From contig WYAX01000014.1 of assembly GCA_011525625.1 (NCBI GenBank), positions 124,001 through 188,000 on the forward strand: 64,000 nt of DNA. The letters run 5' to 3'. The notes beneath the pieces are model-generated. The model had not been told where the DNA came from, did no database searches, and saw nothing but the letters and a program-made list of their open reading frames with translations. Shown here piece by piece: positions 25,169 to 47,867 of this stretch (its first letter is position 1; each line of letters opens with the position of its first letter). Made by a program: the position numbers and the translations under genes. This DNA is from Nitrospira defluvii (GTDB lineage Bacteria; Nitrospirota; Nitrospiria; Nitrospirales; Nitrospiraceae).

Positions 25169-25194
25169 TCGGCTCTTAACCGGTGAGGACGACG

Positions 25195-25845
25195 ATGGCA
25201 CAACCACGCGTGACGCCAAAAGCGCAAGAGGCGCTGGATGAGGACGAGCAGACAGGAAAGGCACCCGATGCCAAGCTGTATGAGGAGCTTGGGGAGTTAG
25301 CCCGGTTCATCGATACGACGATGAAAACCCTCTCCGAGTTCAGCGCCCCGGTCAATGCATCGACGGAACAGTTGCCGCAAGCGCAGACCCATCTCCTGAA
25401 TCTCAAAACGCAGACCGAACAGGGCACGCATCGAGTAATGCTGGAGGTGGAAGCCATTCAAGAGAACCACGTGCAGGCCAACAAGATGCTGAAGGACATC
25501 GCACAGGCACTCCAGCACGCGAGCGTAGACCCCGGCCTTATTCAACAGATGCACGCATTGGGACAGACGCTCGGACAGAACGACAAGCGCCTGCTCGACA
25601 TCATGACGGCCCTGTCGTTCCAAGATTTGGTGGCACAGAGCGTCAATAAACTCGTCACGATTCTGGATGAAGTCGAACACAGATTGCTTCAATTGGTCGT
25701 GGTCTTCGGGCCCTATCAAAAGCAGGCAGCCAAGACCGATCAGAGCAAGGCCAGTGAAATGCTGAAGCAGTTGGAAGCGACCAAGAATACCTCCATGGAC
25801 CAGGATCTCGCCGACGAGATTCTGAAGCAATTCGGTTTTAACTGA
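25195..25845 (+). CDS. cheZ: CheY-P phosphatase CheZ
   Basis: The 216-residue protein is helical, with the long hairpin of CheZ. ALSFQDLVAQSVNKL contains the catalytic DxxxQ pair, Asp144 and Gln148 (Asp143/Gln147 in E. coli). The C-terminal peptide DEILKQFGFN is the CheY-binding tail. The GTG at 25183 is also in frame, but GGTGAGGA sits at the right distance for the ATG at 25195. CheZ removes phosphate from CheY-P to reset the motor signal. Confidence 0.85.
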   Translation: MAQPRVTPKAQEALDEDEQTGKAPDAKLYEELGELARFIDTTMKTLSEFSAPVNASTEQLPQAQTHLLNLKTQTEQGTHRVMLEVEAIQENHVQANKMLKDIAQALQHASVDPGLIQQMHALGQTLGQNDKRLLDIMTALSFQDLVAQSVNKLVTILDEVEHRLLQLVVVFGPYQKQAAKTDQSKASEMLKQLEATKNTSMDQDLADEILKQFGFN

Positions 25846-25853
25846 GGTGGGCT

Positions 25854-27734
25854 ATGAGCGATGAAATGCAGGAAATACTCAACGACTTTCTGACCGAATC
25901 GAACGAGATGCTCGAGGTCCTCGATCAGCGGTTTGTCACGTTGGAGTCCGACCCCACCAACACCGACCTGCTGAATGAAATCTTTCGTGCGATGCATAGT
26001 ATGAAAGGCTCGGCGGGATTCCTCGGGTTCAACCATTTGGTCGACGTCGCGCATCGCGGGGAAAATATTCTGAACAAGCTTCGGCAGGCCGAAATGGCGG
26101 TCAGCCCGGCGATCATCAGCGTCATTCTCGAAACGGTCGATGTCATCAAAGCCATCATGGCCGACATTAAAGACTCCGGAATGGACAGTCACGTGCCGAC
26201 CGGTGCCATCTCCGCGAAGCTCGACGATATCCTGAACGGAGATCCGACCGCGGCAGCGGCTCCGATCGCGGCATCACCCAAAACCGAGACGGCCGCTCCG
26301 ACGGCATCTGACGCTGCTCCAGGCCCCCCTCCACAGACCATCGGCGAGATCCTGGTCAACGACGGATTGGCATCGAAAGAACAAGTCTTCGATGCGCTGA
26401 CCGCTCAACAGCATCAGGCAGAACCGAAGACGCCGTTAGGTGAGATTTTGCTTCAGGCGAAGGCGATCACCGAGCGGGCGCTGGATCAGGCGCTGCACAA
26501 ACAGGAGAAACAGCCGAAGCCGGTGGAGGAGGACGCGACCATCCGGGTGGAAACCAAACGGTTGGACAGCGTCATGAATCTCGTCGGTGAGCTGGTGTTG
26601 GGGCGCAATCGTCTCATCAAGATCGGTACTCAGTTGGAGCAGCAGCATGAATCGGATCCCCAGGTCCGGGTGCTCAGCGAAACGCTTGCACAACTCAACT
26701 TGGTGACGACCGATTTGCAATTGGCCGTCATGAAGACCCGCATGCTGCCTATCAAGAAGGTCTTCGCCAAACTCCCTCGCATGGTACGTGACCTGTCCCA
26801 GAAGCTGAACAAACAAGTCCGGCTCGAGATGCATGGTGAGGAAACCGAACTCGATAAGTCCGTCGCCGACGAAATCGGCGATCCGCTGGTACACCTGGTC
26901 CGCAACGCCATCGATCACGGCATTGAAACGCCGGCAGAACGGCAAGCCAAGGGAAAGACCGGGGAGGGACTGCTGACGATCGCCGCCAGCCAAGAAGGCA
27001 ACAGCATCGTCATTCGTATCAATGACGACGGACGAGGGATTCCAGTCGAGAAGATCAAAGCCAAGGCGTTAGGCAAAGGTCTGGTCAGCGAAGCGGAGCT
27101 CGCGACCATGGAACATCGTGAAATCCTGAATCTGATTTTCCTGCCCGGATTCAGCACAGCCGAGCAGGTCACGGATGTGTCGGGCCGCGGCGTCGGCATG
27201 GATGTCGTGCGTACCAATATCCGGAAGATCAACGGCAGCGTGGACTTGGAGTCGGAACCGGGAAAGGGCAGCCAGATCATCATCAAGCTGCCGCTGACGA
27301 TCGCGATCATCCAGGCCCTGATGGTCGAAGTCGAACGATCGATTTTCGCCATTCCATTGAGCACCGTGATCGAAGCCGTGCGCATTTCCCGAAGCGATAT
27401 CAAGACGATCAACGGACGGGAAGTGTTGCACTTGCGCGATCGCGTCCTGCCGCTTATTCGCTTGGCGCAGGAGTTTGACATTCCGACGGATGCCGATCGC
27501 GAGCGGTTCTACGTCGTGGTGGCCGCATTGGGAGATCGACGCATCGGGGTGGTCGTCGATGAACTGCGTTCGCAGGAAGAAGTCGTCATCAAGTCGATTT
27601 GGGATTACCTGGAAACCGTCAAAGGCGTATCCGGCGCCACCATCACCGGTGAAGGAAAAGTGGTGCTCATTTTGGATACGTCCGAATTGGTACAGAACGC
27701 GCAGGCCTGGCACAACCCGGGCATCGCCGCGTGA
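25854..27734 (+). CDS. cheA: Chemotaxis histidine kinase CheA (system 1)
   Basis: The 626-residue kinase has an N-terminal Hpt domain with His48 (FRAMHSMKGSAGF), the dimerisation helix pair after residue 225, the HATPase domain (HLVRNAIDHGIE, DDGRGI, GVGMDVV) and a C-terminal CheW-like domain. There is no receiver at the end. Between Hpt and dimerisation, residues about 160-220 carry two GEIL-type helical repeats in place of a recognisable P2 domain; see the finding on MshEN-like repeats. It sits 8 bases after cheZ. Confidence 0.93.
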   Translation: MSDEMQEILNDFLTESNEMLEVLDQRFVTLESDPTNTDLLNEIFRAMHSMKGSAGFLGFNHLVDVAHRGENILNKLRQAEMAVSPAIISVILETVDVIKAIMADIKDSGMDSHVPTGAISAKLDDILNGDPTAAAAPIAASPKTETAAPTASDAAPGPPPQTIGEILVNDGLASKEQVFDALTAQQHQAEPKTPLGEILLQAKAITERALDQALHKQEKQPKPVEEDATIRVETKRLDSVMNLVGELVLGRNRLIKIGTQLEQQHESDPQVRVLSETLAQLNLVTTDLQLAVMKTRMLPIKKVFAKLPRMVRDLSQKLNKQVRLEMHGEETELDKSVADEIGDPLVHLVRNAIDHGIETPAERQAKGKTGEGLLTIAASQEGNSIVIRINDDGRGIPVEKIKAKALGKGLVSEAELATMEHREILNLIFLPGFSTAEQVTDVSGRGVGMDVVRTNIRKINGSVDLESEPGKGSQIIIKLPLTIAIIQALMVEVERSIFAIPLSTVIEAVRISRSDIKTINGREVLHLRDRVLPLIRLAQEFDIPTDADRERFYVVVAALGDRRIGVVVDELRSQEEVVIKSIWDYLETVKGVSGATITGEGKVVLILDTSELVQNAQAWHNPGIAA

Positions 27735-34733: not shown

Positions 34734-35852
34734 ATGATTCTCGACTGGTTATACGTCGTAGCTGCGTTTTGTGCCGGGGCCTCCTTGTCCTGGGTCTGGT
34801 GCCGGCGACGAAGTGCCTCGTGCACGCCCCAGACCCACGTCACGCAAGAGGACAGGCTGAAGGAGCAGGCGGAGCGCACCGTACTGTGGGAGCAGCTGGG
34901 CCATTCGATGATGCCGCTCGTGCTGGTCCTGAATGCGCAGATGAAGAGCGTCATTCATCAAACCGAAGAGGCCGCAACCGACCTCGGCCAACGATTCAGC
35001 ACGATTGCCTCCCGTGCCACGGCACAGGGCAATGACTTTATGACCCTCTACGGCGGCGGTGGCGAACTCAACCTCGATACCGTGCTGAAAACCACGGATA
35101 CCATGCTCGAAGGGTTTGTCAGCGACGTCATGAAGTCGTCGGAAATGGCCCTGAACATCGCGACCATCATGGACGAGGTCGAGCGCAGCACGAAGGCGAT
35201 TACCGGCATGATCGGCGAAATTCAGTTCATCGCGGATCAGACACGACTACTCGCACTGAATGCCGCGATCGAAGCCGCGCGAGCGGGTGAACATGGACGC
35301 GGGTTTGCAGTGGTCGCCGACGAGGTCACCAAACTCGCCAATCGGTCGGGCCAAGCCGCGAGCAGCATCAATGCCATGGTGAAGGACGTGCAACGAAGCA
35401 CGACCCACGCGATGAGTACCGTGGAGAGCCTGGCGTCCGTAGACCTCAGCAAAACGCTCTCCATCAAACATCGCCTCGATCAAATGACCCGCACCCTCGC
35501 CGAACGAAACAAGACTCTACATTCCGCCATCATGAACTCGAAGTCCCACGCGGACGAACTCGCCCAGGACGTCGGCAAAATCATCATGGCCCTGCAATTT
35601 CAGGACATCACGCGGCAGAAGCTTGAACATGTGATCGAGCCGCTCACCGAGGTGCGCGAGGTGATGGATGCGCTGATTCAAGGTCAGGCGCCCGACCAGG
35701 TTGCTGCCAAGTTGGATTTCCTCGCGAGGCTCGACAAGAGTTACACGATGGAAGAAGAACGTGCGCTGTTTCATCGATCGACGAATGGGCAGTTTGCACA
35801 AGTTTCACAGGCCGTCGCCCCAGCAGAAGATGCCAATGTCACCCTGTTTTAA
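34734..35852 (+). CDS. Transducer-like protein with MCP signalling hairpin and a CheZ-like FQDxxxQ motif
   Basis: The 372-residue protein has one N-terminal membrane segment (about 4-22) and no periplasmic sensor or HAMP domain. The MCP hairpin tip [19 protein letters not shown] is near residues 181-199. After it, [10 protein letters not shown] contains Asp291 and Gln295, the DxxxQ arrangement found in CheZ (compare ALSFQDLVAQ in the CheZ at 25195). It could be a transducer that also dephosphorylates the CheY of system 2, which has no cheZ of its own. That activity is inferred. Confidence 0.7.
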
Positions 35853-35889
35853 GTAACGCCCGATCATCAGAGTCATGAAGGAGTGCGTC

Positions 35890-36261
35890 ATGCCGAAAAC
35901 AGTCTTAGTGGTCGACGATTCACCGACGATGCGCCAGATGGTGGCGTTTACCCTGAGTAGCGCCGGCTACCAGGTCGTAGAGGCCGGCAACGGTAAGGAG
36001 GCCGTCGGCAAGGTCAACGGCGGGACCAAACCGGACCTGGTCGTCACCGACTTGAACATGCCGGAGATGGACGGCATCTCCCTGATCAAGGAAATCCGGA
36101 AGATGCCGGCGCTCAAATTCACGCCGATCCTGATGCTCACTACGGAGGCCTCGGACGACAAGAAGAAAGCCGGGCAGGCGGCGGGCGCGACCGGCTGGAT
36201 TGTGAAGCCGTTTAATCCCGAGCAGATGATGGCGGTGATCAAGAAAGTGTTGCCCGGCTGA
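35890..36261 (+). CDS. cheY: CheY-like response regulator (system 2)
   Basis: A stand-alone receiver of 123 residues. Asp9 and Asp10 (LVVDDSPTM), phosphoacceptor Asp54 (VVTDLNMPEMDG), Thr in MLTTEA and Lys in IVKPFN are intact. AAGGAG at 35878 fits the ATG at 35890. DLNMPEMDG is typical of CheY proteins outside the motor-binding clade, so this may be a phosphate sink or a motor-binding CheY; unresolved. Confidence 0.88.
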   Translation: MPKTVLVVDDSPTMRQMVAFTLSSAGYQVVEAGNGKEAVGKVNGGTKPDLVVTDLNMPEMDGISLIKEIRKMPALKFTPILMLTTEASDDKKKAGQAAGATGWIVKPFNPEQMMAVIKKVLPG

Positions 36262-36328
36262 TGGGCAGCCTCTCGGAACACATTGCGGCGTCGATGAGAC
36301 GACCTGCAGCGACCGGCGTGGAGAGACC

Positions 36329-38437
36329 ATGAGCACAGACCTTTCTCACTTCAAAGATGCCTTTTTCGAAGAGTCGCAGGAACACCTGACGACGATTGAA
36401 GAAGGATTGCTCCAGCTCGAACAACGTCCGGGAGATATCGACCTCCTGAACCGCATATTCCGCGGTGCGCATTCGATCAAAGGCAACAGCGGCATGTTCG
36501 GCTTCACGGCCGTCTCCCAATTCACGCACAAGATGGAGTCGGTCCTGGACCAGCTTCGCAGCAGTCAGATGGTCGTGACGGTCGAAGTCACCGACCTCTT
36601 GTTGCAATCGCTCGATTGCCTGAAAACGTTGATCGATTGCGCCAAATCGGGGGAGGCGCCGAACGACGAATTGGTGTCCGGGTTAGGCGGACGGCTCGAG
36701 GCGTGTCAGAACGGAGGGACGGCTACGAACACCGTGGCTGGGGCGGCTCCACCGATACCCCCACGGGCAACGAGCGAACATCACTACACGCTCACCTGGG
36801 TCCCCCCTCAATACCTCTTTCAGCGCGGGTTGGATCCCACCCAGTTCATCAAAGAACTGGGAGAGCTGGGCCGCGTGAAGATTGTGTCGCTCGACACGAG
36901 CCGATTGCCCAAGCTCAAAGAGTTGGATCCCGAACAATGCTATCTGGGCTGGGCGCTCGAACTGGATACGGTCAAGGACGTGACAGTCATCGAGGCGGTG
37001 TTTGATTTCGTGCGGGAAGACAGCACGTTGACCATCGTCGATCAGCCGCCGGCCGTCGCTTCATCGAACGACCAAAAGCCCTTGGGGGAAATCCTTGTCG
37101 AAAGCGGCGTCGTGTCCCAGACCGAGCTGAACCAGGCCCTGTCTCAACAAAAGCGAGTCGGGGAGATTCTGGTCGAACAGAAAGCCGCGACCCCCGAGCA
37201 AATCTCGGAAGCCTTGAAGAAACAATCCGATAACGCACCGGCGAAAAAAACGGAAACGCCTTCCATACGCGTCGATACCGTCAAAATCGACCGCCTGATC
37301 AATCTGGTTGGGGAACTCGTCATTACGCAGTCCATGTTGAGCGATCTCGGCTCTCGCTTCGAGATGAGTCAACTGCCGGTCCTGCTCGAACGGGTGGCGC
37401 AACTGGAACGGAATACGCGCGAGATTCAAGAGCGGGTCATGGGAATTCGGATGGTGCCGATCGGCAATGCCTTCAGTCGGTTCCCTCGCCTCGTCCGCGA
37501 CCTGTCCGGAAAGGCCGGTAAGAAAATACACCTCATTCTGTCCGGCGAAGAGACTGAACTCGATAAGACAGTCATCGAATCCATCGGTGACCCGCTGACG
37601 CACCTGGTGCGGAATTCAGCCGACCATGGCCTCGAAACCCCGGCCGAGCGCGTGGCAGCGGGAAAACCTGAACAGGGCATCATCCGCCTCAACGCGTTTC
37701 ATGAAGGCGGCAATATCTGCATCACGGTGGAAGACGACGGACGTGGGCTGAACAGAGAGAAGATCCTCGCGAAAGGTGTGAAGCAGGGATTGATTGCGGA
37801 GTCGGACAAATTATCCGACGAGCAGATCTGGATGCTCATCTTCAAACCGGGATTCTCCACCGCCGACAAGGTCACGGACGTGTCCGGCCGCGGCGTCGGC
37901 ATGGACGTGGTCAAGCGGAACATCGAAGGTCTGGGCGGCACCGTCAGCATCAAAACGACGGCAGGGAAGGGCACCACCTTCACCCTGAAGCTGCCGCTCA
38001 CGTTGGCGATCATCGAAGGGATGACGGTCCGGGTAGGCAAGGACACCTATATCGTTCCGCTGCTGTCCATTCTTGAATCGATTCAGCCGAAGCGGGAGAT
38101 GATCAAAACCATCGTGGGCAAAGGGGAGTTGGTCAATGTTCGGGGCACCTATCTTCCTCTCATGCGCCTGTACGACGTGTTTCGGCTGGAACCGGAGTTG
38201 TCGGATCCGACCAAGGCGATCTTGTTGATACTGGAGACCGAGGGCGAGCGGGTCGCCGTGATGGTCGACGAAATTCTCGGGCAGCAGCAGGTGGTCATCA
38301 AGAGCATGGAGCAGAACTTCAGAAAGATCGAAGGCGTCGCCGGCGCCACGATTCTCGGGGACGGCACGGTCGGGTTCATTCTGGATGTCCGCGGATTGCT
38401 CAATATCTCTCGGAACGGGACGGCACAGGCGGCGTAG
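36329..38437 (+). CDS. cheA: Chemotaxis histidine kinase CheA (system 2)
   Basis: The 702-residue kinase has Hpt with His48 (FRGAHSIKGNSGMFGF), a P2-like domain from about 150 to 235 (YTLTWVPPQYLF...GLDPTQFI), two GEILV repeats (residues about 250-300), then dimerisation, HATPase (HLVRNSADHGLE, DDGRGL, GVGMDVV) and CheW-like domains. It is longer than the system 1 CheA because P2 is kept. The GEILV repeats are shared by both kinases; see the finding. CheW follows. Confidence 0.92.
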   Translation: MSTDLSHFKDAFFEESQEHLTTIEEGLLQLEQRPGDIDLLNRIFRGAHSIKGNSGMFGFTAVSQFTHKMESVLDQLRSSQMVVTVEVTDLLLQSLDCLKTLIDCAKSGEAPNDELVSGLGGRLEACQNGGTATNTVAGAAPPIPPRATSEHHYTLTWVPPQYLFQRGLDPTQFIKELGELGRVKIVSLDTSRLPKLKELDPEQCYLGWALELDTVKDVTVIEAVFDFVREDSTLTIVDQPPAVASSNDQKPLGEILVESGVVSQTELNQALSQQKRVGEILVEQKAATPEQISEALKKQSDNAPAKKTETPSIRVDTVKIDRLINLVGELVITQSMLSDLGSRFEMSQLPVLLERVAQLERNTREIQERVMGIRMVPIGNAFSRFPRLVRDLSGKAGKKIHLILSGEETELDKTVIESIGDPLTHLVRNSADHGLETPAERVAAGKPEQGIIRLNAFHEGGNICITVEDDGRGLNREKILAKGVKQGLIAESDKLSDEQIWMLIFKPGFSTADKVTDVSGRGVGMDVVKRNIEGLGGTVSIKTTAGKGTTFTLKLPLTLAIIEGMTVRVGKDTYIVPLLSILESIQPKREMIKTIVGKGELVNVRGTYLPLMRLYDVFRLEPELSDPTKAILLILETEGERVAVMVDEILGQQQVVIKSMEQNFRKIEGVAGATILGDGTVGFILDVRGLLNISRNGTAQAA

Positions 38438-38494
38438 GCGACAGGCGGTTGAACCATGGCGACGACGACTTCACGAACAGGGTGGGAGGACACG

Positions 38495-39004
38495 ATGGCA
38501 GATCAGGAATCCACGAACAAAGAATTGAATCATCAGATGGGGATCAGCACCGACGGTAGTCAGTTCCTGACGTTTCAGCTCGGCGAAGAACTGTACGGCG
38601 TCGATATTCTCCGCGTGCAGGAAATCAAGGGGTATACGGCAGTCACGCGTATTCCCAATACCCCGTCCCACATCAAAGGCGTGTTGAACCTCCGTGGAAC
38701 CATCGTGCCCATTGTGGAGCTCCGCACGAAGTTCGGGATGCCGACAATCGAATACACCATGTTCACCGTGATCGTGGTCGTGGTCGTAAAGGAAAAAATC
38801 ATGGGACTCGTCGTGGATGCGGTCTCCGACGTGCTCGATATCGATAAGAAAGATATTCAGCCCGCGCCGCAATTCGGCGCGCAAGTCGATGTCAGTTTCC
38901 TGAACGGCATCGGCAAAGCCGGCGACAAGCTGGTCGCGTTACTCGACATGGATCGCCTGCTGACCGACGGAGACATGACGGAATCCGAGAAAATTGCCGC
39001 TTAA
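38495..39004 (+). CDS. cheW: Chemotaxis coupling protein CheW (system 2)
   Basis: A CheW domain in 169 residues (FQLGEELYGVDILRVQEI, then VLNLRGTIVPIVEL). The start at 38495 has GGGAGGA at 9-15 bases; an in-frame ATG at 38456 lacks one and would add 13 residues unlike the family. It links CheA of this cluster to the globin transducer next door. Confidence 0.9.
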   Translation: MADQESTNKELNHQMGISTDGSQFLTFQLGEELYGVDILRVQEIKGYTAVTRIPNTPSHIKGVLNLRGTIVPIVELRTKFGMPTIEYTMFTVIVVVVVKEKIMGLVVDAVSDVLDIDKKDIQPAPQFGAQVDVSFLNGIGKAGDKLVALLDMDRLLTDGDMTESEKIAA

Positions 39005-39029
39005 CCATCGCACCCAGGGAGACTAAGAC

Positions 39030-41348
39030 ATGGGATTAAACATTGAACTGTTGGAATCGAGCTTCAAACTGGTGGCGCCCCAGGGCGACGCGTTGGTGAC
39101 CCGTTTTTATGAACGGCTGTTCGAAAAGTATCCGGTCGTGAAGCCGCTGTTCAAAAACGCGTCGATCAGCGAACAGAAGAAAAAGCTACTGGCCTCCCTG
39201 GTCCTGGTCATCCAGAACCTGCGTCATCCGGAAAAACTCACCCCGGTCCTGCAGGACATGGGAGCCCGACACGTCGGATACGGCGCCAAGCCGGCCTACT
39301 ACGACGCGGTCGGGGAGAATCTGCTCGCGGTCTTGGGCGAATTTGCCGGAGAGGCCTGGACGCCTGAGGTCAGTCAAGCCTGGACGGACGCCTACGCAGC
39401 CATCAAGACCATTATGCTCGAGGGAGCAAAACGCGGACACCACACACAAGGAGAGAAGAAGATGAGTAAGGCACCGGCAAAGACGAAGACGAAAGCGCCA
39501 GCGCAGGCCGATATGAGCGGCTTTTACCTGGGCGCACTCGAACAATCACAGAACAACATTCTGCTCTGCGATCGCAATCTGGTCATCACCTATGCCAATT
39601 CCACGGCGAAGAAAACACTCGTGGCCTTGGAGCCGGAAATTAAGAAGGTGTTGCCGAAGTTCAACGTGAATACGGTGGTGGGCACCTGCATCGACGATTT
39701 CCATCTGGATCCCAGCAAGCAGCGAAAGATTTTGGCAGACCCCGCGAACATGCCGCACAAGGCGGACATCCAAATCGGTCCATTGACGCTGAGTTTGTTG
39801 GTCACCGCCGTGATGAGTCCGGACGGGGACTATCTCGGGAATGCCTTGGAGTGGGCGGATGTCACTGAGAAGCGAAAAATGGAGCAACAGGCTTTGGCGA
39901 TGAGCAAGTCGCAGGCCGTGATCGAATTCAACCTGGACGGAACGGTCGTTACCGCCAACGACAATTTCCTGGCCTGCCTCGGCTACACGTTGGATGAAAT
40001 CAAGGGGAAACATCACCGGTTGTTTGTCGACCCGACCTATGCCAACAGCCTGGAGTACCAAGCGTTTTGGGCCAAGCTGAATCGTGGTGAGTTTGACACC
40101 AACTCCTACAAGCGGATCGCGAAGGGCGGGAGAGAGATCTGGATTCAAGCCACCTACAATCCCATCTTCGATGCCAGCGGCAAGCCGTACAAGGTCGTCA
40201 AGTTCGCCAGCGACATCACCGCGCAGAAACAGTCCCAATTCGAAATGGAGAAACTTGTCACCGAAGCCCAGAACGTCCTCGGTCGCCTGGCCAACAACGA
40301 CCTCACGCAGGAAATGACCGAGACCTATCGCGGCGATCTGGATAAAGTGAAGTGCAGCATCAATGCGGTGGTTCAGAACCTCACGCAAACCATCACCTCC
40401 GTGCGCGAAGCCGTCCAAGCCGTGTCGTCCGGTGCGGAGCAGATCACCAAGGGCAATGAAGATCTCTCGCAGCGCACGTCGGAACAGGCTAGCGCGTTGG
40501 AAGAGACGTCCGCTTCCATGGAAGAAATGACCTCTACCGTCAAACAGAATGCCGATAATGCCAAGCAGGCGAACCAGCTGGCCATCGCGGCGCGCGACAT
40601 CGCCGACAAGGGCGGATCCGTCACGGTCCGTGCGGTGGAAGCCATGGGGGAGATCAACAAGAGCAGCAAGAAGATCGCGGACATCATCACCGTGATCGAC
40701 GAGATCGCCTTCCAGACCAATCTGCTGGCATTAAACGCCGCGGTGGAAGCGGCCCGAGCCGGGGAGCATGGCCGGGGCTTTGCGGTGGTGGCGGCGGAAG
40801 TCCGGAACTTGGCCCAGCGGTCGGCGACCGCAGCCAAAGAAATCAAAGGATTGATCAACGAGTCGATCCAACGTGTCAGCGACGGCAGCGAGTTGGTGAA
40901 CCAATCCGGCAAGACGCTGGAGGAGATCGTGAGCTCAGTGAAGCGGGTCACGGACATCATCGCGGAGATCACGGCCGCATCCCAGGAACAGGCCCAGGGG
41001 ATCGACCAGGTCAACAAGGCCATCATGCAGATGGACGAGACCACCCAGCAGAACGCGGCGCTGGTGGAGGAAACCACCTCGGCCAGCCAATCCATGAAGG
41101 ATCAGGCCAAGGAACTGATGAGCCAGATGGACGTGTTCGTCGTCAATGCCTCCGAAGACCATGCGTCTGCGCGCACAGCAACGCCTTCGGCGAGGACTGT
41201 AGCCAAGCCGGCGGTGAGCGTCACAAAGCCGGGCTTGAAGAAGCCGAGCTTCTCGGCGAGGCCGGCGGAGACCAAAAAGCCTGTGGGTGTCGCCGCCGGG
41301 AACGGCCACGATCGCCACAAGAAGGATGACGACTTCGAAGAGTTCTAG
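39030..41348 (+). CDS. Globin-PAS-PAS methyl-accepting chemotaxis protein (soluble)
   Basis: The 772-residue protein has no membrane segment. Residues 1-142 are a bacterial globin of the flavohaemoglobin/neuroglobin-like kind: [18 protein letters not shown] includes His81 as the proximal haem ligand. Two PAS domains follow (about 160-275 and 285-400), then a long MCP signalling domain with [16 protein letters not shown] and [13 protein letters not shown] Lys/Pro/Ala linker ends in DDDFEEF, whose last five residues resemble an aromatic CheR-docking pentapeptide. An internal ATG at 39462 (Met145) follows AAGGAGAG and could give a globin-less form. Oxygen, NO or CO sensing in the cytoplasm is the likely role. 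Confidence 0.88.
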
Positions 41349-41356
41349 CATCCCGT

Positions 41357-41391
41357 CCGTGCGGGTGGGTACATATTGCCCACCTGCACGG
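41357..41391 (+). terminator. Terminator hairpin after the globin-MCP gene
   Basis: A 13-bp stem with one G-T pair (left arm 41357-41369, right arm 41379-41391) encloses a 9-base loop; TTCCCTC follows and a run of six T lies at 41410-41415. It separates this operon from the sigma-28-like promoter at 41452. Confidence 0.6.
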
Positions 41392-41451
41392 TTCCCTCAC
41401 GTGACGCGCTTTTTTCGCAACTCCCGCCAACAATTTCAGCGTGATCCCCCT

Positions 41452-41478
41452 TAAGAAACAGCTTCACGCAACCGATAA
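41452..41478 (+). promoter_or_regulatory. Sigma-28-type promoter before the DUF420/cheR-cheD-cheB operon
   Basis: TAAGAAAC, an 11-base spacer and ACCGATAA have the same geometry and -10 octamer as the fliC promoter. The transcript would start near 41485, about 70 bases before the DUF420 ATG. Confidence 0.65.
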
Positions 41479-41555
41479 GTGAAGGTGCGGGTGTATTCAT
41501 GCCGGACCCGCTTCGACGGCTCCGGTCGATTTCACCACTAGCCCAAGGACGAATC

Positions 41556-42017
41556 ATGGACTTCAAAACCATCCTCTGGTATCTCGTCCTCACTAGTTTG
41601 ACCGTGGCCTATCTCGTCGTGTTGGCCGGCGTGCGGGCCGCCAAATCCCACGATGTTTCGCACCATTCCCATCGCATGATCGTCGGATGCACCATCGTCG
41701 GAATCTGGCTTGTCGCGTACGTGCTCAAACAAGCTCTGTTCGGACGGGAGTCGTTCAAAGGCCCGGAGACCGACTATTGGTCCCTCTACGTCCCCATCTT
41801 CGTCACCCATATGTTGCTGGCCGTCTCGACGATCGTCCTCGGTGCGTACAACCTCTACATGGGACTCCATCGCCTCCGGTTCGGCAGTGTGGGAGCCATG
41901 GTTGCCGGTATGACGACGCATCGACGCATGGGCAACGCACTTGTGTGGACGTTCAGCGGCACGATGATTACCGCCTATCTGGTCTATCTGATGTTATTTG
42001 TGTGGTATCGGAGCTAA
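41556..42017 (+). CDS. DUF420-like membrane protein
   Basis: The 153-residue protein has four predicted membrane helices (about 5-25, 42-60, 78-98, 130-150). Several His residues lie at membrane edges (HDVSHHSHR at 32-40, VTHMLL, THRRMG), as in DUF420 proteins, which are suspected haem-binding relatives of cytochrome oxidase assembly proteins. AAGGA precedes the ATG. It is the first gene after a sigma-28-type promoter and just before cheR. Its role in chemotaxis is unknown; redox sensing is speculation. Confidence 0.7.
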   Translation: MDFKTILWYLVLTSLTVAYLVVLAGVRAAKSHDVSHHSHRMIVGCTIVGIWLVAYVLKQALFGRESFKGPETDYWSLYVPIFVTHMLLAVSTIVLGAYNLYMGLHRLRFGSVGAMVAGMTTHRRMGNALVWTFSGTMITAYLVYLMLFVWYRS

Positions 42018-42021
42018 TACG

Positions 42022-42840
42022 ATGGAATACGCGATCTCGAAGCAGGAATACGAAAAGATCCGCACGTTGCTGTACGACGAAAGCGGCATCTCGCTGGGGG
42101 ACAGCAAGCAGTCCCTGGTGGTCTCTCGCCTGACCAAACGGCTCCGTGACCTCCATATGGATAGTTTTGCCTCTTACTACCAGTATGTGACGCAGGACCA
42201 AAGCGGCGAAGAGTTCACGCGCATGCTGGATCTCCTCTCGACGAACAAGACGGATTTTTTCCGCGAGCCCAAACATTTCGATTTTCTGCGTGAACGCATC
42301 CTGCCCACCCTGGAAAAAGAAAAACAAATCCGGATTTGGTCCTCCGCCTGTTCGACCGGCGAAGAACCGTACACCATCGCCATGACCCTGTATGAAAGCG
42401 TCCGTGCCCCGGAGCAGTGGAACTTTCAGGTCCTCGCGTCGGATATCTCCACTCGCGTCTTGGCGCATGCCGCCAAGGGACTGTATGCGGAAGAGCGGGT
42501 ACGCGAGGTTCCGGCGGAGATCGTGAAGCGGCATTTCCTTCATGGGCGAGGAGACAGTGCCGGGCTCGTGAAGGTCAAGCCGCATCTTTCTGCAATCATC
42601 AAGTTCCGGCGGTTGAACCTGATGGACGATCGGTTCCCCATCAAGGCGCCGCTCGATCTGATCTTCTGCCGGAACGTGATGATTTACTTCGATCGTCCGA
42701 CGCAGGAACGCCTGGTGAACAAGTTCTATCACCATCTCAAGCCGGGCGGATACTTGTTCATTGGACACTCAGAAAGTTTGCAGTGGGTGTCCCATCCTTT
42801 CAAAACGATCGCCCCGACCATCTACTGGAAGGAAGCTTGA
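42022..42840 (+). CDS. cheR: Chemotaxis protein methyltransferase CheR (system 2)
   Basis: The 272-residue protein has the CheR N-domain (YEKIRTLLYDESGISL) and SAM-binding domain with IWSSACSTGEEPYTIA near residues 104-119 and FCRNVMIYFDRPTQ. The start at 42022 directly follows the DUF420 stop. CheD and CheB follow, completing the adaptation set for the transducers of system 2. Confidence 0.92.
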   Translation: MEYAISKQEYEKIRTLLYDESGISLGDSKQSLVVSRLTKRLRDLHMDSFASYYQYVTQDQSGEEFTRMLDLLSTNKTDFFREPKHFDFLRERILPTLEKEKQIRIWSSACSTGEEPYTIAMTLYESVRAPEQWNFQVLASDISTRVLAHAAKGLYAEERVREVPAEIVKRHFLHGRGDSAGLVKVKPHLSAIIKFRRLNLMDDRFPIKAPLDLIFCRNVMIYFDRPTQERLVNKFYHHLKPGGYLFIGHSESLQWVSHPFKTIAPTIYWKEA

Positions 42841-42845
42841 GAACG

Positions 42846-43463
42846 ATGCCTGTCATCGACACCGACACATTTTCCCATATTCGCCGGATGCAGGATCGCC
42901 GGTTTCCTCACGAAATCGCCTGCATTCTACCGGGTGAGTTTTTCGTGAGCCGGGAACCGATGGTGGTCTATACCGTCCTCGGTTCCTGTATTTCCGCCTG
43001 CATTCGCGATCCGATCGTCGGTGTCGGCGGCATGAACCACTTTATGCTTCCCGCGCCGAAAGAACATCAATCCGGAGATTCCTGGGGCGGGGAGTCGACA
43101 CGGTATGGCTCGTTCGCGATGGAGCAACTGATCAACGAAATCCTGAAGCGCGGCGGGCTGAAGCATCGACTGGAAGTGAAACTGTTCGGCGCCGGAAGAA
43201 TCTACGAAGGCAATATCGATGTCGGTGCACGTAATACCGAATGGGTCCTGCAATTTCTGAAGACAGAAGGCTACACCGTCGCTAAGAGCGATCTCGGCGA
43301 CGTGTATCCCCGGAAGGTGTATTACTTCACGGATTCCGGGCGCGTGCTGATGAAAAAGATCGAACGGGTCAAGAATCGGACGATTTACGAGCGGGAGTCC
43401 GAGTACCAACACCGGATCGCAGAGGAGCCGACGACGCAACAGGGCGATATCACGCTCTTCTAA
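42846..43463 (+). CDS. cheD: Chemoreceptor glutamine deamidase CheD
   Basis: The 205-residue protein has the CheD catalytic Cys48 in [11 protein letters not shown] and His65 in GMNHFMLP. An N-terminal extension of about 30 residues precedes the domain. CheD deamidates receptor glutamines and, with CheC in some species, takes part in adaptation. No cheC is seen in this window. The ATG at 42846 follows the cheR stop by 5 bases. Confidence 0.9.
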
Positions 43464-43525
43464 CTGTGGGCCCGGAGTGGCACCTTGTCCCGCAGGCACA
43501 CCACAAGAGATGGAGATGTTCGGCA

Positions 43526-44575
43526 ATGAGTAAGATTCGAGTGCTGACGATCGACGATTCCGCGTTGATGAGGCAAGTGTTGGCTGAGCTGCTGTCGAAA
43601 GATCCCGACATCGAGGTCATCGGCAGCGCACCGGATCCCTATGTCGCCAGAGAGAAGATCAAGGCGCTCAATCCCGATGTGCTGACCCTGGATGTGGAAA
43701 TGCCGAAGATGGACGGCTTGACCTTCCTGGAAAAGCTCATGCGGGGACGTCCCACGCCGGTGATCATGGTCAGTTCATTGACCGAGGCCGGCTGCGAGAC
43801 CACACTCCGCGCGCTGGAGCTCGGGGCGGTGGACTTTATCACCAAACCGAAGATCGATCTTCGCCAGGGCATGGACGATATTGCCGCCGACTTGATCGCC
43901 AAGGTCAAAGGCGCAGCCACCGCGTCGCTCCGACAGACGCCCGCGGCAGGCGCACAGACTCCTGTGAGGCCGACCGCCCTGAACTCGGCCATGATCAAGA
44001 CAACCGATATGATTATCGCGATCGGATCGTCAACCGGCGGGACCGAAGCCGTGAAGGAGGTGTTGCAGGTGCTGCCACCCAATACCCCTCCGATACTGAT
44101 CACGCAACATATGCCTGAAAAGTTCACGAAAACCTGGGCCGATCGCATGAACGAACTCTGCCGCATCTCCGTGAAGGAGGCCGAAGACGGCGACAGTGTG
44201 TTGCCCGGTCATGCGCTGATTGCACCCGGCAACTACCACATGACCTTGGTTCGCAGCGGTGCGCGGTATTCGGTGCGCATCAATCAGAACGAGCCGGTGA
44301 ACCGCCATCGCCCCTCGGTCGACGTCATGTTCGACTCCGTCGCGCAGTATGCGGGCGGGAATTCGGTGGGTGTGATCCTGACCGGGATGGGCGGGGACGG
44401 CGCGAAGGGGTTACTCAAGATGAAGGAAGCCGGGGCCTATACCATCGCGCAGGATGAGGCTTCGTGCGTCGTCTTTGGGATGCCCAAAGAAGCTATTAAG
44501 CTGGGGGCGGCCGACGTCGTGCGCCCGCTCAAAGACATTGCCGCAACCGTGCTGACTCATGTCGCCCGTGCCTGA
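43526..44575 (+). CDS. cheB: Protein-glutamate methylesterase CheB (system 2)
   Basis: In 349 residues: a receiver domain ([12 protein letters not shown]; phosphoacceptor in [11 protein letters not shown]) and a methylesterase domain ([33 protein letters not shown]). The start at 43526 is set by the beginning of the receiver domain; upstream in-frame codons back to 43466 lack similarity. Note TGMGGDG where CheB of system 1 has TGMGHDG; both are normal variants. Confidence 0.92.
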
Positions 44576-44604: not shown

Positions 44605-44943
44605 ATGAAAATCACGAAAGAAGTCAATAATCGCAAGGTCACCTTGAAGCTGGAAGGCAACTTTACCTACACCCAGCGAAAACCGTTTCAGGAAATGCTG
44701 AAATCGGTCGCCGTCGATGGGGTCGACCAGATCGTGATCGAGCTTTCCCAAGTAGCATTCCTCGACAGCGCGGCATTGGGGCTGCTGATGATTTCTCACC
44801 GGCAGTTGCAGGCAGAAAAGCGCACGTTGTCCCTGGCCTACCCTCAGCCCACGGTCCGGCAGATTATCGAGTTGGCCAATTTGCACAAGACGATCCCGCT
44901 GATCGATGCGGACGCTCCGTCGACGATTAAGAAGAGCGCCTGA
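44605..44943 (+). CDS. STAS-domain anti-anti-sigma factor-like protein A
   Basis: The 112-residue STAS protein has VAFLDSAALGLLM with Ser55 at the phosphorylation site of SpoIIAA/RsbV proteins. AAAGAGGAG precedes the ATG. With the following STAS protein, phosphatase and kinase-like genes it completes a partner-switching set placed in the chemotaxis operon. Confidence 0.85.
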   Translation: MKITKEVNNRKVTLKLEGNFTYTQRKPFQEMLKSVAVDGVDQIVIELSQVAFLDSAALGLLMISHRQLQAEKRTLSLAYPQPTVRQIIELANLHKTIPLIDADAPSTIKKSA

Positions 44944-44974
44944 GGCTAATCTGCCGTCATGGAAGGAGCCGGGC

Positions 44975-45325
44975 ATGCAGATTACTGAACGGCGTGTCGG
45001 GAATGCCGTCATTCTCGATCTGGTCGGGGAGCTGACCTACGCCAACCGCGCTACCTTCAAGGGGGCGGTCGATCGCGTGAAATCGAGCGGGTGCCGCCAG
45101 GTGATTTTCAACATGCACGGGGTTCGATTTTTGGATAGTTCCGCGCTCGGGACCCTGGCGCTCGTGGCGCAAAGCCTGAGCGGCACGCCGGGACGGATCG
45201 CGCTGTTGAACCCCCAAAGTTACGTGAAAGAGATCATTACGTTGGCCAATCTCCATCAGATGTTGCCCGTTTATCACTCGGAACAGGACGCGATTGCGGC
45301 AACGAATCTGCCCGCGGCCGGTTGA
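44975..45325 (+). CDS. STAS-domain anti-anti-sigma factor-like protein B
   Basis: This 116-residue STAS protein has VRFLDSSALGTL with Ser55 as the predicted target of an RsbW-like kinase. AAGGAG at 44962 supports the ATG at 44975. It is clearly related to the preceding STAS protein, including the parallel ENVTLANLH-like end (TLANLHQMLPVY against ELANLHKTIPLI), so the two look like a tandem duplication that diverged. Confidence 0.85.
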   Translation: MQITERRVGNAVILDLVGELTYANRATFKGAVDRVKSSGCRQVIFNMHGVRFLDSSALGTLALVAQSLSGTPGRIALLNPQSYVKEIITLANLHQMLPVYHSEQDAIAATNLPAAG

Positions 45326-45346
45326 ACAGTCCCAGGAGCAGTTTAC

Positions 45347-46612
45347 GTGGGTGAGCCCGCACCGCAGATGACACCATCGGTCGAGGTCGTGACGGTTCCC
45401 AAACCGGCACCGGTGATTTTGCTCGTCGACGACGACGAAATCACCAGAATCGGCATGGCCGGTCGATTGAAACGCTTGGGGTATCGTGTGATCGAAGCCG
45501 TCGATGGTAGCGCCGGCTTAACCGCGATCCGCGCGCACCGTCCGGACTTGGTGATCCTCGATTGGATGATGCCGGGCATGGACGGTCCCAGTGTCTGTGA
45601 AGCGATCCGTGCGGACCCGGAGTTACGATCGAGTCAGGTCGTCCTCATGACCGCGCACGATCGGCCCGAACAGATTGCTGAAGGCCTCTCGCGCGGCGCC
45701 GACGATTTCCTCAGCAAAGCCGCCAGCAAGCAGGAAGTCCTGGCGCGGGTGCAGGCCAGCATACGGTCCAGCGCCCTGGTTCGTGAGATCGAGCGCACCC
45801 GCGACGATCTAGACCGTTCGCACAAATTGCTCTCCGCCAAGCAGCATGAGTTGGAGAGCGAACTCCAATCAGCTGCCGCCTTCGTCCGAGCGCAACTCCC
45901 GTTGCCGGGGATTCCGGCGCCGGGCATCGCCATGCACTGGGCCTATCAACCGTCCCTCGCCTTGGGCGGAGATCTCTTCCAGGTCTGTGCCTGGGGGACG
46001 GACGCGCTCGGGCTTTACATTCTCGATGCATCCGGCCACGGGGTCGCCGCAGCGCTGCGCGCGGTGGGACTCATGAGTTTTCTCCGTGAAGACAATCTCG
46101 TGAAAGCCGTGGGCAGCTTCGATCCCGGAGCGATCATCAACGAAGCCAACCGCCGTTTTCCGTTAAGCCAGGACGGGGAGTACTTTACTCTGTGGGTGGG
46201 CCGCCTCGATCTCACGTCATATGAATTGTCGTATGCCACGGCGGGCCATAGCGGCGCATTTCTGCATGCCACCAACGGTGACTCCCGATGGCTGGCCTCC
46301 GCGAGCCTGCCGTTGGGATTCGATCCAGCCTCGACCTTCGAAAGCGCCCGCACACAGTTACAACCGCACGACCGCCTCTACCTGTTAAGCGACGGAATCT
46401 ACGAGGCGCCGTCGACGACCGGTGAACTCTGGGGCAAGCCCCGCCTGCAAGCCACACTCGAAGAGCATCGCTCCTCCGGCCTGGTTCACAGCATCACGGA
46501 AACCATGGCCATCGCTCATCAATGGCTAGGCGGAGACATCTTTCCCGACGATGTCGCGCTACTCGGGCTGGAAATCCAAGACCGGTCGACCGCGCACAAG
46601 GGGAGGGCCTAG
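45347..46612 (+). CDS. Receiver-PP2C (RsbU/SpoIIE-type) serine phosphatase
   Basis: The 421-residue protein has an N-terminal receiver with VDDDEITRIG and phosphoacceptor Asp72 (ILDWMMPGMDG), a coiled linker, then a PP2C/SpoIIE domain with GGDLFQV, LDASGHGVAAAL and PDDVALLGLEI as metal-binding motifs. When phosphorylated such proteins dephosphorylate STAS partners. The start is a GTG after CAGGAG. It is the obvious phosphatase for the two STAS proteins upstream, and HsbR of Pseudomonas has the same layout. Confidence 0.87.
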   Translation: MGEPAPQMTPSVEVVTVPKPAPVILLVDDDEITRIGMAGRLKRLGYRVIEAVDGSAGLTAIRAHRPDLVILDWMMPGMDGPSVCEAIRADPELRSSQVVLMTAHDRPEQIAEGLSRGADDFLSKAASKQEVLARVQASIRSSALVREIERTRDDLDRSHKLLSAKQHELESELQSAAAFVRAQLPLPGIPAPGIAMHWAYQPSLALGGDLFQVCAWGTDALGLYILDASGHGVAAALRAVGLMSFLREDNLVKAVGSFDPGAIINEANRRFPLSQDGEYFTLWVGRLDLTSYELSYATAGHSGAFLHATNGDSRWLASASLPLGFDPASTFESARTQLQPHDRLYLLSDGIYEAPSTTGELWGKPRLQATLEEHRSSGLVHSITETMAIAHQWLGGDIFPDDVALLGLEIQDRSTAHKGRA

Positions 46613-46971
46613 TGGAATATCAAACGATCATGGACCTGACCGCCGCGCTCGATCGGTTGGACGGGGACCAGGAGCTCTTTCTGACGCTGGCCGGTCTGTT
46701 CGTGGAACGGACCCCGCCGGCGCTCGCCGCCATTCAGGCGGCGACGACCGCAGGCGATCTCCCGACTCTGATCAAGGAAGCCCACAAGTTGAAGGGGTCG
46801 GCCATGGAGTTCTGTGCCAAACCGACGGTGGCCTCCGCAGCCCACCTCGAAGAAGCCGCGCGCAAGGCCGCCGTACAGGAACTTGCCGCACTGGTCGAAC
46901 AGGTGCAGGCAGAAGCGGGACGCCTCACGGCGGCGCTGGTGACGCTCATCGAAAAGGGATGTCCCACATGA
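46612..46971 (+). CDS. Histidine phosphotransfer (Hpt) protein
   Basis: The 119-residue protein is a stand-alone Hpt domain with phosphorylatable His58 in KEAHKLKGSAMEF. The GTG start overlaps the preceding TAG stop (TAGTG). It may shuttle phosphate from CheA or another kinase to the receiver of the phosphatase just upstream or the receiver protein just downstream. Partner choice is not evident from sequence. Confidence 0.85.
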   Translation: MEYQTIMDLTAALDRLDGDQELFLTLAGLFVERTPPALAAIQAATTAGDLPTLIKEAHKLKGSAMEFCAKPTVASAAHLEEAARKAAVQELAALVEQVQAEAGRLTAALVTLIEKGCPT

Positions 46972-47867
46972 CCGTGCCGGGATCTTTCCCTTCCCTCTTG
47001 GCCGTCGTCCCCGATTCCGAGGTCTTGGCCCTCATCCTGGAACAGGCACAGGCTCGCGACATCTCTGTCGTCACCGCTCCGGACCCGAGGGCGGCGCTCG
47101 CCATGGTGGAGATGACACGACCCGAGCTCGTCATCACCGACCTGTTCTTGCCGGAACGCACCGGGATCATGCTCGTTCAGGAAATTCGCAAACGATGTGC
47201 CACCACGGTGAGTATCGCCTCGGCCGACACCGCGGATGAGGGGAGCGTCCTCGAGGCCATGCGTGCCGGCGCCACAGACTACGTTCCTCGACCGACCGGT
47301 GCCAAGGAAATCGGACTGGCGTTGGATCGAGCGATCCAACGACTCCCCCGCCCGGTGGACGCGATACCGGGCATCGAGCAGGTGGACTACCGTCTGACCA
47401 TCGGCACCGATCCCCACCACGTCGAAGCCTGCGTGACCTGGTTGATCGAGCAAACAGCCAATAAGCTCCCGGAATCCCAGCGACTGCACCTCCGGGCCAC
47501 ACTGATCGAACTCATCGTCAACGCCGTGGAACATGGCAGCCTGGAAATCCAGTATCAGGAGAAACACCAGGCGCTCAGCACCGACCGATTTGACGCCCTG
47601 ATCGAGGCGCGCCGGCGTGACCCGCGCTTCGCCGAGCGTCGCGTGGTCGTTCGGGCCGGGCACGACCTCCGCCGCCGCCGACTCCACTACGCGATTGCGG
47701 ATGAGGGGAACGGGTTCACCTGGGACCGCTTTCTCACGAAGAGCGACCAGCCCTGCGACAGCCGTGACGCCAATGGACGCGGGGTCTTTCTCGCCAAGGC
47801 GTTCTTCCCCGATTTGACCTATAACGAACGCGGCACGCAGGTGACCTTCTCCGTACCGCTGCCGTAA
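46968..47867 (+). CDS. Receiver-HATPase protein (RsbW-like anti-sigma/serine kinase)
   Basis: In 299 residues a receiver-like domain (phosphoacceptor Asp58 in VITDLFLPERTG) is joined to a HATPase_c_2 domain with N-box IELIVNAVEHG and G-boxes IADEGNGFTW and DANGRGVFLAKAFF. The receiver is degenerate: the N-terminal acidic pair is reduced to a lone Asp16 (VVPDSE), and the usual Lys-Pro is Arg-Pro. The ATPase part has an insert of about 35 residues. It probably phosphorylates the STAS proteins. It overlaps the Hpt gene as ATGA. Confidence 0.82.
   Translation: MTVPGSFPSLLAVVPDSEVLALILEQAQARDISVVTAPDPRAALAMVEMTRPELVITDLFLPERTGIMLVQEIRKRCATTVSIASADTADEGSVLEAMRAGATDYVPRPTGAKEIGLALDRAIQRLPRPVDAIPGIEQVDYRLTIGTDPHHVEACVTWLIEQTANKLPESQRLHLRATLIELIVNAVEHGSLEIQYQEKHQALSTDRFDALIEARRRDPRFAERRVVVRAGHDLRRRRLHYAIADEGNGFTWDRFLTKSDQPCDSRDANGRGVFLAKAFFPDLTYNERGTQVTFSVPLP

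Follow-up and report, generated by a model that had tools for sequence, protein, structure and literature searches.

Within a 64-kb window of the Nitrospira defluvii genome (the whole stretch of DNA analyzed, to which all coordinates refer), a gene for a membrane-anchored chemoreceptor encodes the complete active-site signature of the CheY phosphatase CheZ. Judged from its sequence and gene order, this protein is a McpA-like receptor of an F7-type chemosensory system, an identity that the original prediction had missed; the named members of this group were compared by description only. We see about an even chance that it is a tethered CheZ-like phosphatase for CheY2, the CheY of its own operon. 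These features suggest that one protein could both relay the chemotaxis signal and end it, and if this is true, an output-ending enzyme can be part of a receptor. The receptor group is known already, and the CheZ-type site in it is apparently new, since no report of such a site in McpA-like receptors was found in open-licence PubMed Central papers. The gene and the parts of its product are:

34734 to 35852, + strand: McpA-like receptor with CheZ-type motif, 372 amino acids, ATG start (open reading frame, PF00015, F7-type gene order)
34743 to 34799, + strand: single membrane anchor, approximately residues 4 to 22, followed by CRRR (hydrophobic N-terminal stretch read by eye)
35154 to 35591, + strand: MCP signaling hairpin, residues 141 to 286 (Pfam MCPsignal, PF00015)
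35589 to 35618, + strand: CheZ-type signature A286-x-x-F-Q-D291-x-x-x-Q295, residues 286 to 295 (conservation, signature count, profile-profile match to CheZ)
35742 to 35762, + strand: conserved YTMEEER, residues 337 to 343 (Y337, T338, M339, E342, and R343 nearly invariant in alignment A1)
35835 to 35849, + strand: C-terminal tail NVTLF, possible CheY docking peptide (L371 and F372 nearly invariant in alignment A1)

The protein had been described as a receptor hairpin with one membrane anchor and no sensor or HAMP domain, and this description holds. In Pfam, the MCP signaling domain alone exceeded its cut-off in the receptor (107.1 bits versus 34.6, with the receptor hairpin tip present), no sensor or HAMP domain reached its cut-off (HAMP_2, 15.4 versus 24.3), and a single hydrophobic stretch was read by eye at the N terminus. 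An Rfam search of the 64-kb window returned zero matches.

The signature AXXFQ-DXXXQ is complete in the receptor (A286, F289, Q290, D291, and Q295), with the codons for D291 at 35604 to 35606 and for Q295 at 35616 to 35618. In the available excerpt of an Azorhizobium CheZ study, AXXFQ adjoining DXXXQ is a conserved feature of CheZ (PMC7750401). The original prediction had placed a CheZ-type DxxxQ at Asp291 and Gln295 and had pointed to its mirror, ALSFQDLVAQ, in the CheZ of the same window. Both motifs are where it put them, and the numbering Asp144/Gln148 for the window CheZ is correct for a start at ATG 25195 (D148/Q152 from GTG 25183).

Conservation of the signature was followed in a 42-row alignment made up of the window receptor, 37 Nitrospirota sequences, and relatives from Vibrio, Sphaerotilus, Methylobacterium, and Methylosinus. 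D291, Q295, Q288, and F289 were present in 42 of 42 rows, which counts for a phosphatase role, with the limit that these are not 42 independent cases because many rows are closely related. Q290, R294, and E298 were present in 41 rows; the divergent Vibrio row, ALQFTDIIVQ, has lost these three and kept the other four. A paralogue at L100 (G123:C24) stands outside the alignment, as the regular expression excludes S at F289; it reads SLQSQDVTRQ and keeps D and Q (DVTRQ) despite this change. A C-terminal alignment of 22 rows had nine invariant columns, six in the motif (Q, F, Q, D, R, and Q) and three immediately after it (E, V, and L). The motif lies 115 residues past the hairpin tip in 40 of 45 sequences, and the Methylosinus and Methylobacterium copies keep it although their receptor tip is divergent; both observations also favor a phosphatase role. 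The CheD consensus does not fit residues 286 to 295, and the motif is presumably not a site for CheD or for methylation.

Wider sampling of Proteobacteria gave single finds only, from Sphaerotilus, Methylobacterium, and Methylosinus, together with three Vibrio records whose receptor sequence is the same, and a scan of viral contigs (80 retained loci) gave ordinary receptors and zero further members of the motif-bearing family. The Methylobacterium (L189:4674-5957) and Methylosinus (L190:4929-5960) relatives are on plasmids and retain QFQDxxRQ and an IELF tail with a divergent tip; the Methylosinus protein seems to lack a membrane anchor. The Sphaerotilus relative, also on a plasmid (L106:3725-5854), lies between two CheY-like genes that, like CheY2, are of GATGW type.

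After identical and near-identical open reading frames were merged, the pattern [AS]xxFQDxxxQ was found in 71 of 11,708 distinct frames, from loci chosen partly because they encode such receptors or CheZ: 42 were receptors with an MCP tip, 29 were CheZ, and none was anything else, in line with a phosphatase role. A functionless short motif arising by chance in a coiled coil was rejected on these counts and on the 42-of-42 conservation, and we consider it highly improbable. DxxxQ is common in receptor arms (somewhere in the equivalent arm in 72 of 117 other receptors), but chance would have to account for invariance across two phyla, a near-constant register, and a full signature seen in no other frame examined.

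The D/Q pair alone says little, because ordinary receptors share it at the same distance from the tip. D and Q lay at the identical distance in 18 of the 117 other receptors, which counts against a phosphatase role; we take these to be the long-arm 40H class. Among 75 ordinary receptors aligning without gaps, to a model built from those 18 and therefore favoring them, D was found in 29 and Q in 32 at the motif positions. DxxxQ was accordingly rejected as sufficient evidence. The CheZ likeness originally claimed thus stands in part: the bare DxxxQ is not diagnostic, whereas the AXXFQ context, the fixed register, the invariance, and a profile-profile match uphold it. Long-arm receptors differ from the McpA-like family in that they lack FQ before the D, vary at D and Q, and have no CheZ profile match, and F at the position of F289 occurred in none of the 75. 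In these alignments, what is special to the family is that D and Q are fixed together with F289 and Q290.

These comparisons bear on a noncatalytic explanation, in which a long-arm receptor has inherited D291 and Q295 with its coil, the two are fixed along with Q288, F289, R294, and E298 because this surface binds CheR, CheD, CheB, CheY, or a neighboring dimer, and the CheZ likeness is coiled-coil convergence. The D/Q pair of ordinary receptors favors it, as do R294 and E298, which are conserved as much as Q290 yet are not CheZ residues. Against it, the CheZ-specific neighbors F289 and Q290 are fixed in the family, and the Vibrio copy loses R294 and E298 and keeps D and Q. We regard it as rather unlikely.

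Profile comparisons provide the sharpest contrast with ordinary receptors. Using hhalign, a C-terminal profile of the receptor family matched CheZ with 95.9% probability (score, 59.8), favoring a phosphatase role, whereas globin receptors from the sampled regions gave 5.7%, heme receptors gave 0.6%, and receptors that share the DxxxQ register gave only 0.3%, which argues against inherited coil residues as the source of the likeness. With the motif masked, the family value fell to 37.6%. Using a home-made CheZ profile, the 29 first-found relatives of the receptor scored 15.3 to 46.4 bits; among the matches listed, three of four ordinary receptors scored 6.3 to 7.7, and all reversed or shuffled sequences scored 6.3 or less. 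After the same merging of identical or near-identical frames, medians were 26.9 for 45 motif-bearing sequences versus 6.8 for the 117 other receptors, sorted by a pattern that presupposes the motif, and 38 of the 45 scored above the best control receptor (19.7). Two results on this profile count against a phosphatase role: the Vibrio member scored only 6.1, and masking the motif lowered the median to 7.0 versus the control 6.8. There is therefore no strong CheZ similarity beyond the motif, as the noncatalytic explanation would have it. The likeness between receptor arm and CheZ helix may reflect either shared ancestry or convergence.

Pfam CheZ (PF04344) scored 20.2 bits on the receptor, under its cut-off of 30.7, and every receptor-family member listed was under this cut-off; both results weigh against a phosphatase. 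NCBIfam Phos_CheZ scored 24.9 on the window receptor versus a cut-off of 350; it matched 15 of 27 family members with E values up to 0.1 (best, 3e-6), which weighs in favor. Against PDB sequences, the C-terminal profile ranked E. coli CheZ (1kmi) fifth, at a nonsignificant E value of 0.15, with profile positions 56 to 102 aligned on residues 130 to 176 in the D143/Q147 register. On the whole, the CheZ resemblance as read from sequence is stronger than originally stated. The receptor is like E. coli CheZ and the window CheZ in carrying AXXFQ-DXXXQ on a long helix and in its C-terminal F, and unlike them in that the motif is fused to a receptor hairpin and membrane anchor and in falling below the Pfam and NCBIfam cut-offs.

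In CheZ, Q147 enters the CheY active site, positioned with D143, and the C-terminal peptide binds CheY. In two AF2 models of the receptor (mean pLDDT, 71.8 and 70.6), the D/Q pair belongs to a long predicted helix; after it come a short linker, two short helices that include YTMEEER, and a disordered tail. Their pTM values of 0.34 and 0.33 are low, and therefore no tertiary claim is made from them; in a structural search, CheZ was not among the 50 matches listed. A short peptide, as a rule with F as its last residue, closes both the receptor and CheZ, and the distance from Q to the C terminus is 77 residues in the receptor versus 54 to 72 in 25 CheZ sequences. A CheY-binding peptide of the DDLLxxFGF kind found in CheZ is not in the receptor, whose tail is EDANVTLF, and 11 of 40 distinct family members have the motif but no such tail, which counts against a phosphatase role. 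A C-terminal CheY-binding region is marked in CheZ in the excerpt of PMC7750401.

The receptor gene opens a second set of chemotaxis genes (system 2), contiguous in the window with system 1:

25183 to 25845, + strand: cheZ of system 1, the only full CheZ match of its genome (PF04344, 69.4 bits; own-genome search)
35875 to 36261, + strand: cheY2, proposed substrate (PF00072; directly 3' of the receptor gene)
36329 to 38437, + strand: cheA2 (domain searches)
38456 to 39004, + strand: cheW2 (domain search)
39030 to 41348, + strand: globin-PAS receptor, Aer2-like, tail DFEEF (domain search, tail sequence)
41499 to 42017: DUF420 gene, between the globin-PAS receptor and cheR2
41998 to 42840, + strand: cheR2 (domain search)
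42417 to 43463, + strand: open reading frame holding cheD (CheD is residues 210 to 314; the real start is further in)
43466 to 44575, + strand: cheB2 (domain search)
44906 to 47867, + strand: STAS, REC-SpoIIE phosphatase, and REC-HATPase genes, probable output branch (domain search)

Proximity to cheY2 favors CheY2 as substrate. Across 37 Nitrospirota regions, cheY2 lies directly downstream of the receptor gene in 32 of 37 copies; of the others, one is cut off by the end of its contig and four break the adjacency rule, L078 only through a stop-to-stop cheY2 frame that overlaps the receptor gene; cheY2 adjoins there as well. CheY2 has N two places past the phosphorylation Asp and E two after the conserved T, as in E. 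coli CheY. These two positions set the rate of self-dephosphorylation, and the pair in CheY2 is not one that makes it fast.

System 2 was correctly described as having a CheY and no cheZ: cheY2 follows the receptor gene, and domain searches found no cheZ in the operon from 34734 to 44575. The original prediction had taken this absence as a reason why the receptor may hydrolyze CheY-P; it does not show that system 2 requires a further phosphatase, because the CheZ of system 1 could serve both CheYs; the genome has three CheA, one CheZ, and no CheC or CheX match, and this one CheZ might serve more than one CheY. True CheZ exceeds the cut-off in 39 of 41 other receptor-bearing genomes, which counts against a phosphatase role; in G294 and G219, no CheZ was found besides the receptor's own weak match, which counts for it.

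Assignment to the McpA-like group follows because gene order, the NVTLF tail, and the DFEEF-tailed Aer2-like receptor fit the available parts of Ortega et al. 2020 (PMC7184735). A Vibrio replicon has the order cheY-cheA-cheW-cheW-Aer2-type receptor (tail DEWEEF)-cheR-cheD-cheB-McpA-like relative-SpoIIE-like phosphatase, and its relative matches the window receptor at an E value of 1.3e-29. The stage 1 F7 order in those parts, read from cheY onward, agrees with this replicon and puts the McpA-like receptor at the same position. They also describe a McpA C terminus without the CheR-tether pentapeptide -x-[HFYW]-x(2)-[HFYW], having valine at the second position; the receptor's last five residues, NVTLF, likewise have V there and so lack the pattern, and the DFEEF tail of the globin-PAS receptor fits the Aer2 tether pattern of the same source. 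The receptor shares its F7-type operon place with CttP/McpA/PA0180 (Pseudomonas aeruginosa), VCA1088/Mlp44 (Vibrio cholerae), and SO_2117 (Shewanella oneidensis), and shares with the McpA-like receptors of PMC7184735 the membrane stretch, the lack of a ligand domain, and the valine in place of the CheR-tether aromatic. It differs in that a CheZ-type signature is unmentioned for the group in the available parts of that paper, and one Vibrio relative does carry the signature.

Published locations of McpA-like receptors make the flagellar CheY1 of system 1 a possible substrate. The receptor would then be a phosphatase or CheY-P binder for CheY1, not CheY2, and would link the two systems. In the available parts of PMC7184735, PMC7534058, and PMC9855816, such receptors are reported from the P. 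aeruginosa flagellar array (F6), and in S. oneidensis one is reported with CheA3 and increases swimming when overproduced; systems 1 and 2 are neighbors in the window, and 10 sampled Nitrospira-family regions contain a true cheZ along with the receptor gene. System 1, however, already has CheZ, the receptor gene stands beside cheY2/cheA2 also in genomes with no system 1 gene near, and the V. cholerae relative Mlp44 is assigned to System III in the part of a 2025 review at hand (PMC11940527). We consider CheY1 an improbable target.

If the receptor is instead a phosphatase for CheY2, the hairpin would place it in or beside the receptor array, and the anchor would hold the putative active site at the membrane. 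D291 and Q295, if exposed, would do to CheY2-P what D143 and Q147 do to CheY-P in E. coli CheZ, and the disordered stretch ending in NVTLF could dock CheY like the CheZ C-terminal peptide. The system 2 signal would thus be ended close to CheA2, in an operon without cheZ. In the available parts of PMC7184735, McpA-like receptors co-evolve with F7 systems and are dispensable for F7 array formation, their C terminus is strikingly conserved with its role called unclear, and F7 stages 1 and 2 have cheY and no cheZ. A CheZ-type site would be a concrete answer to both puzzles, the conserved C terminus and the cheY without cheZ. More tentatively, and less likely than not, McpA-like receptors as a whole could be receptor-phosphatase hybrids that supply the CheZ missing from F7-type systems of two phyla; this would explain the conserved C terminus and the usual place beside cheY; CheZ helix and receptor arm would then share ancestry, CheZ deriving from the arm or the reverse.

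Several further features of these loci were recorded. The globin-PAS receptor (39030 to 41348) is Aer2-like and a candidate for sensing oxygen in the F7-type system, and within the window's taxonomic order F7-type clusters repeatedly contain the DUF420 gene. The STAS, REC-SpoIIE, and REC-HATPase genes after cheB2 suggest that system 2 drives a partner-switch (anti-sigma) output instead of, or in addition to, the flagellum. Both CheA proteins (36329 to 38437 and 25854 to 27734) match an NCBIfam c-di-GMP-binding motif related to MshE (49.1 and 42.9 bits; cut-off, 38). In Nitrospirota outside the window's order (L038-L048, L051, L052, L056, L059, L060, and L062-L067), one protein of ~400 to 525 amino acids begins with a CheW-like domain, read from the sequence, to which CheZ is fused C-terminally. 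This would put a phosphatase on the array adaptor, another route for tethering CheZ.
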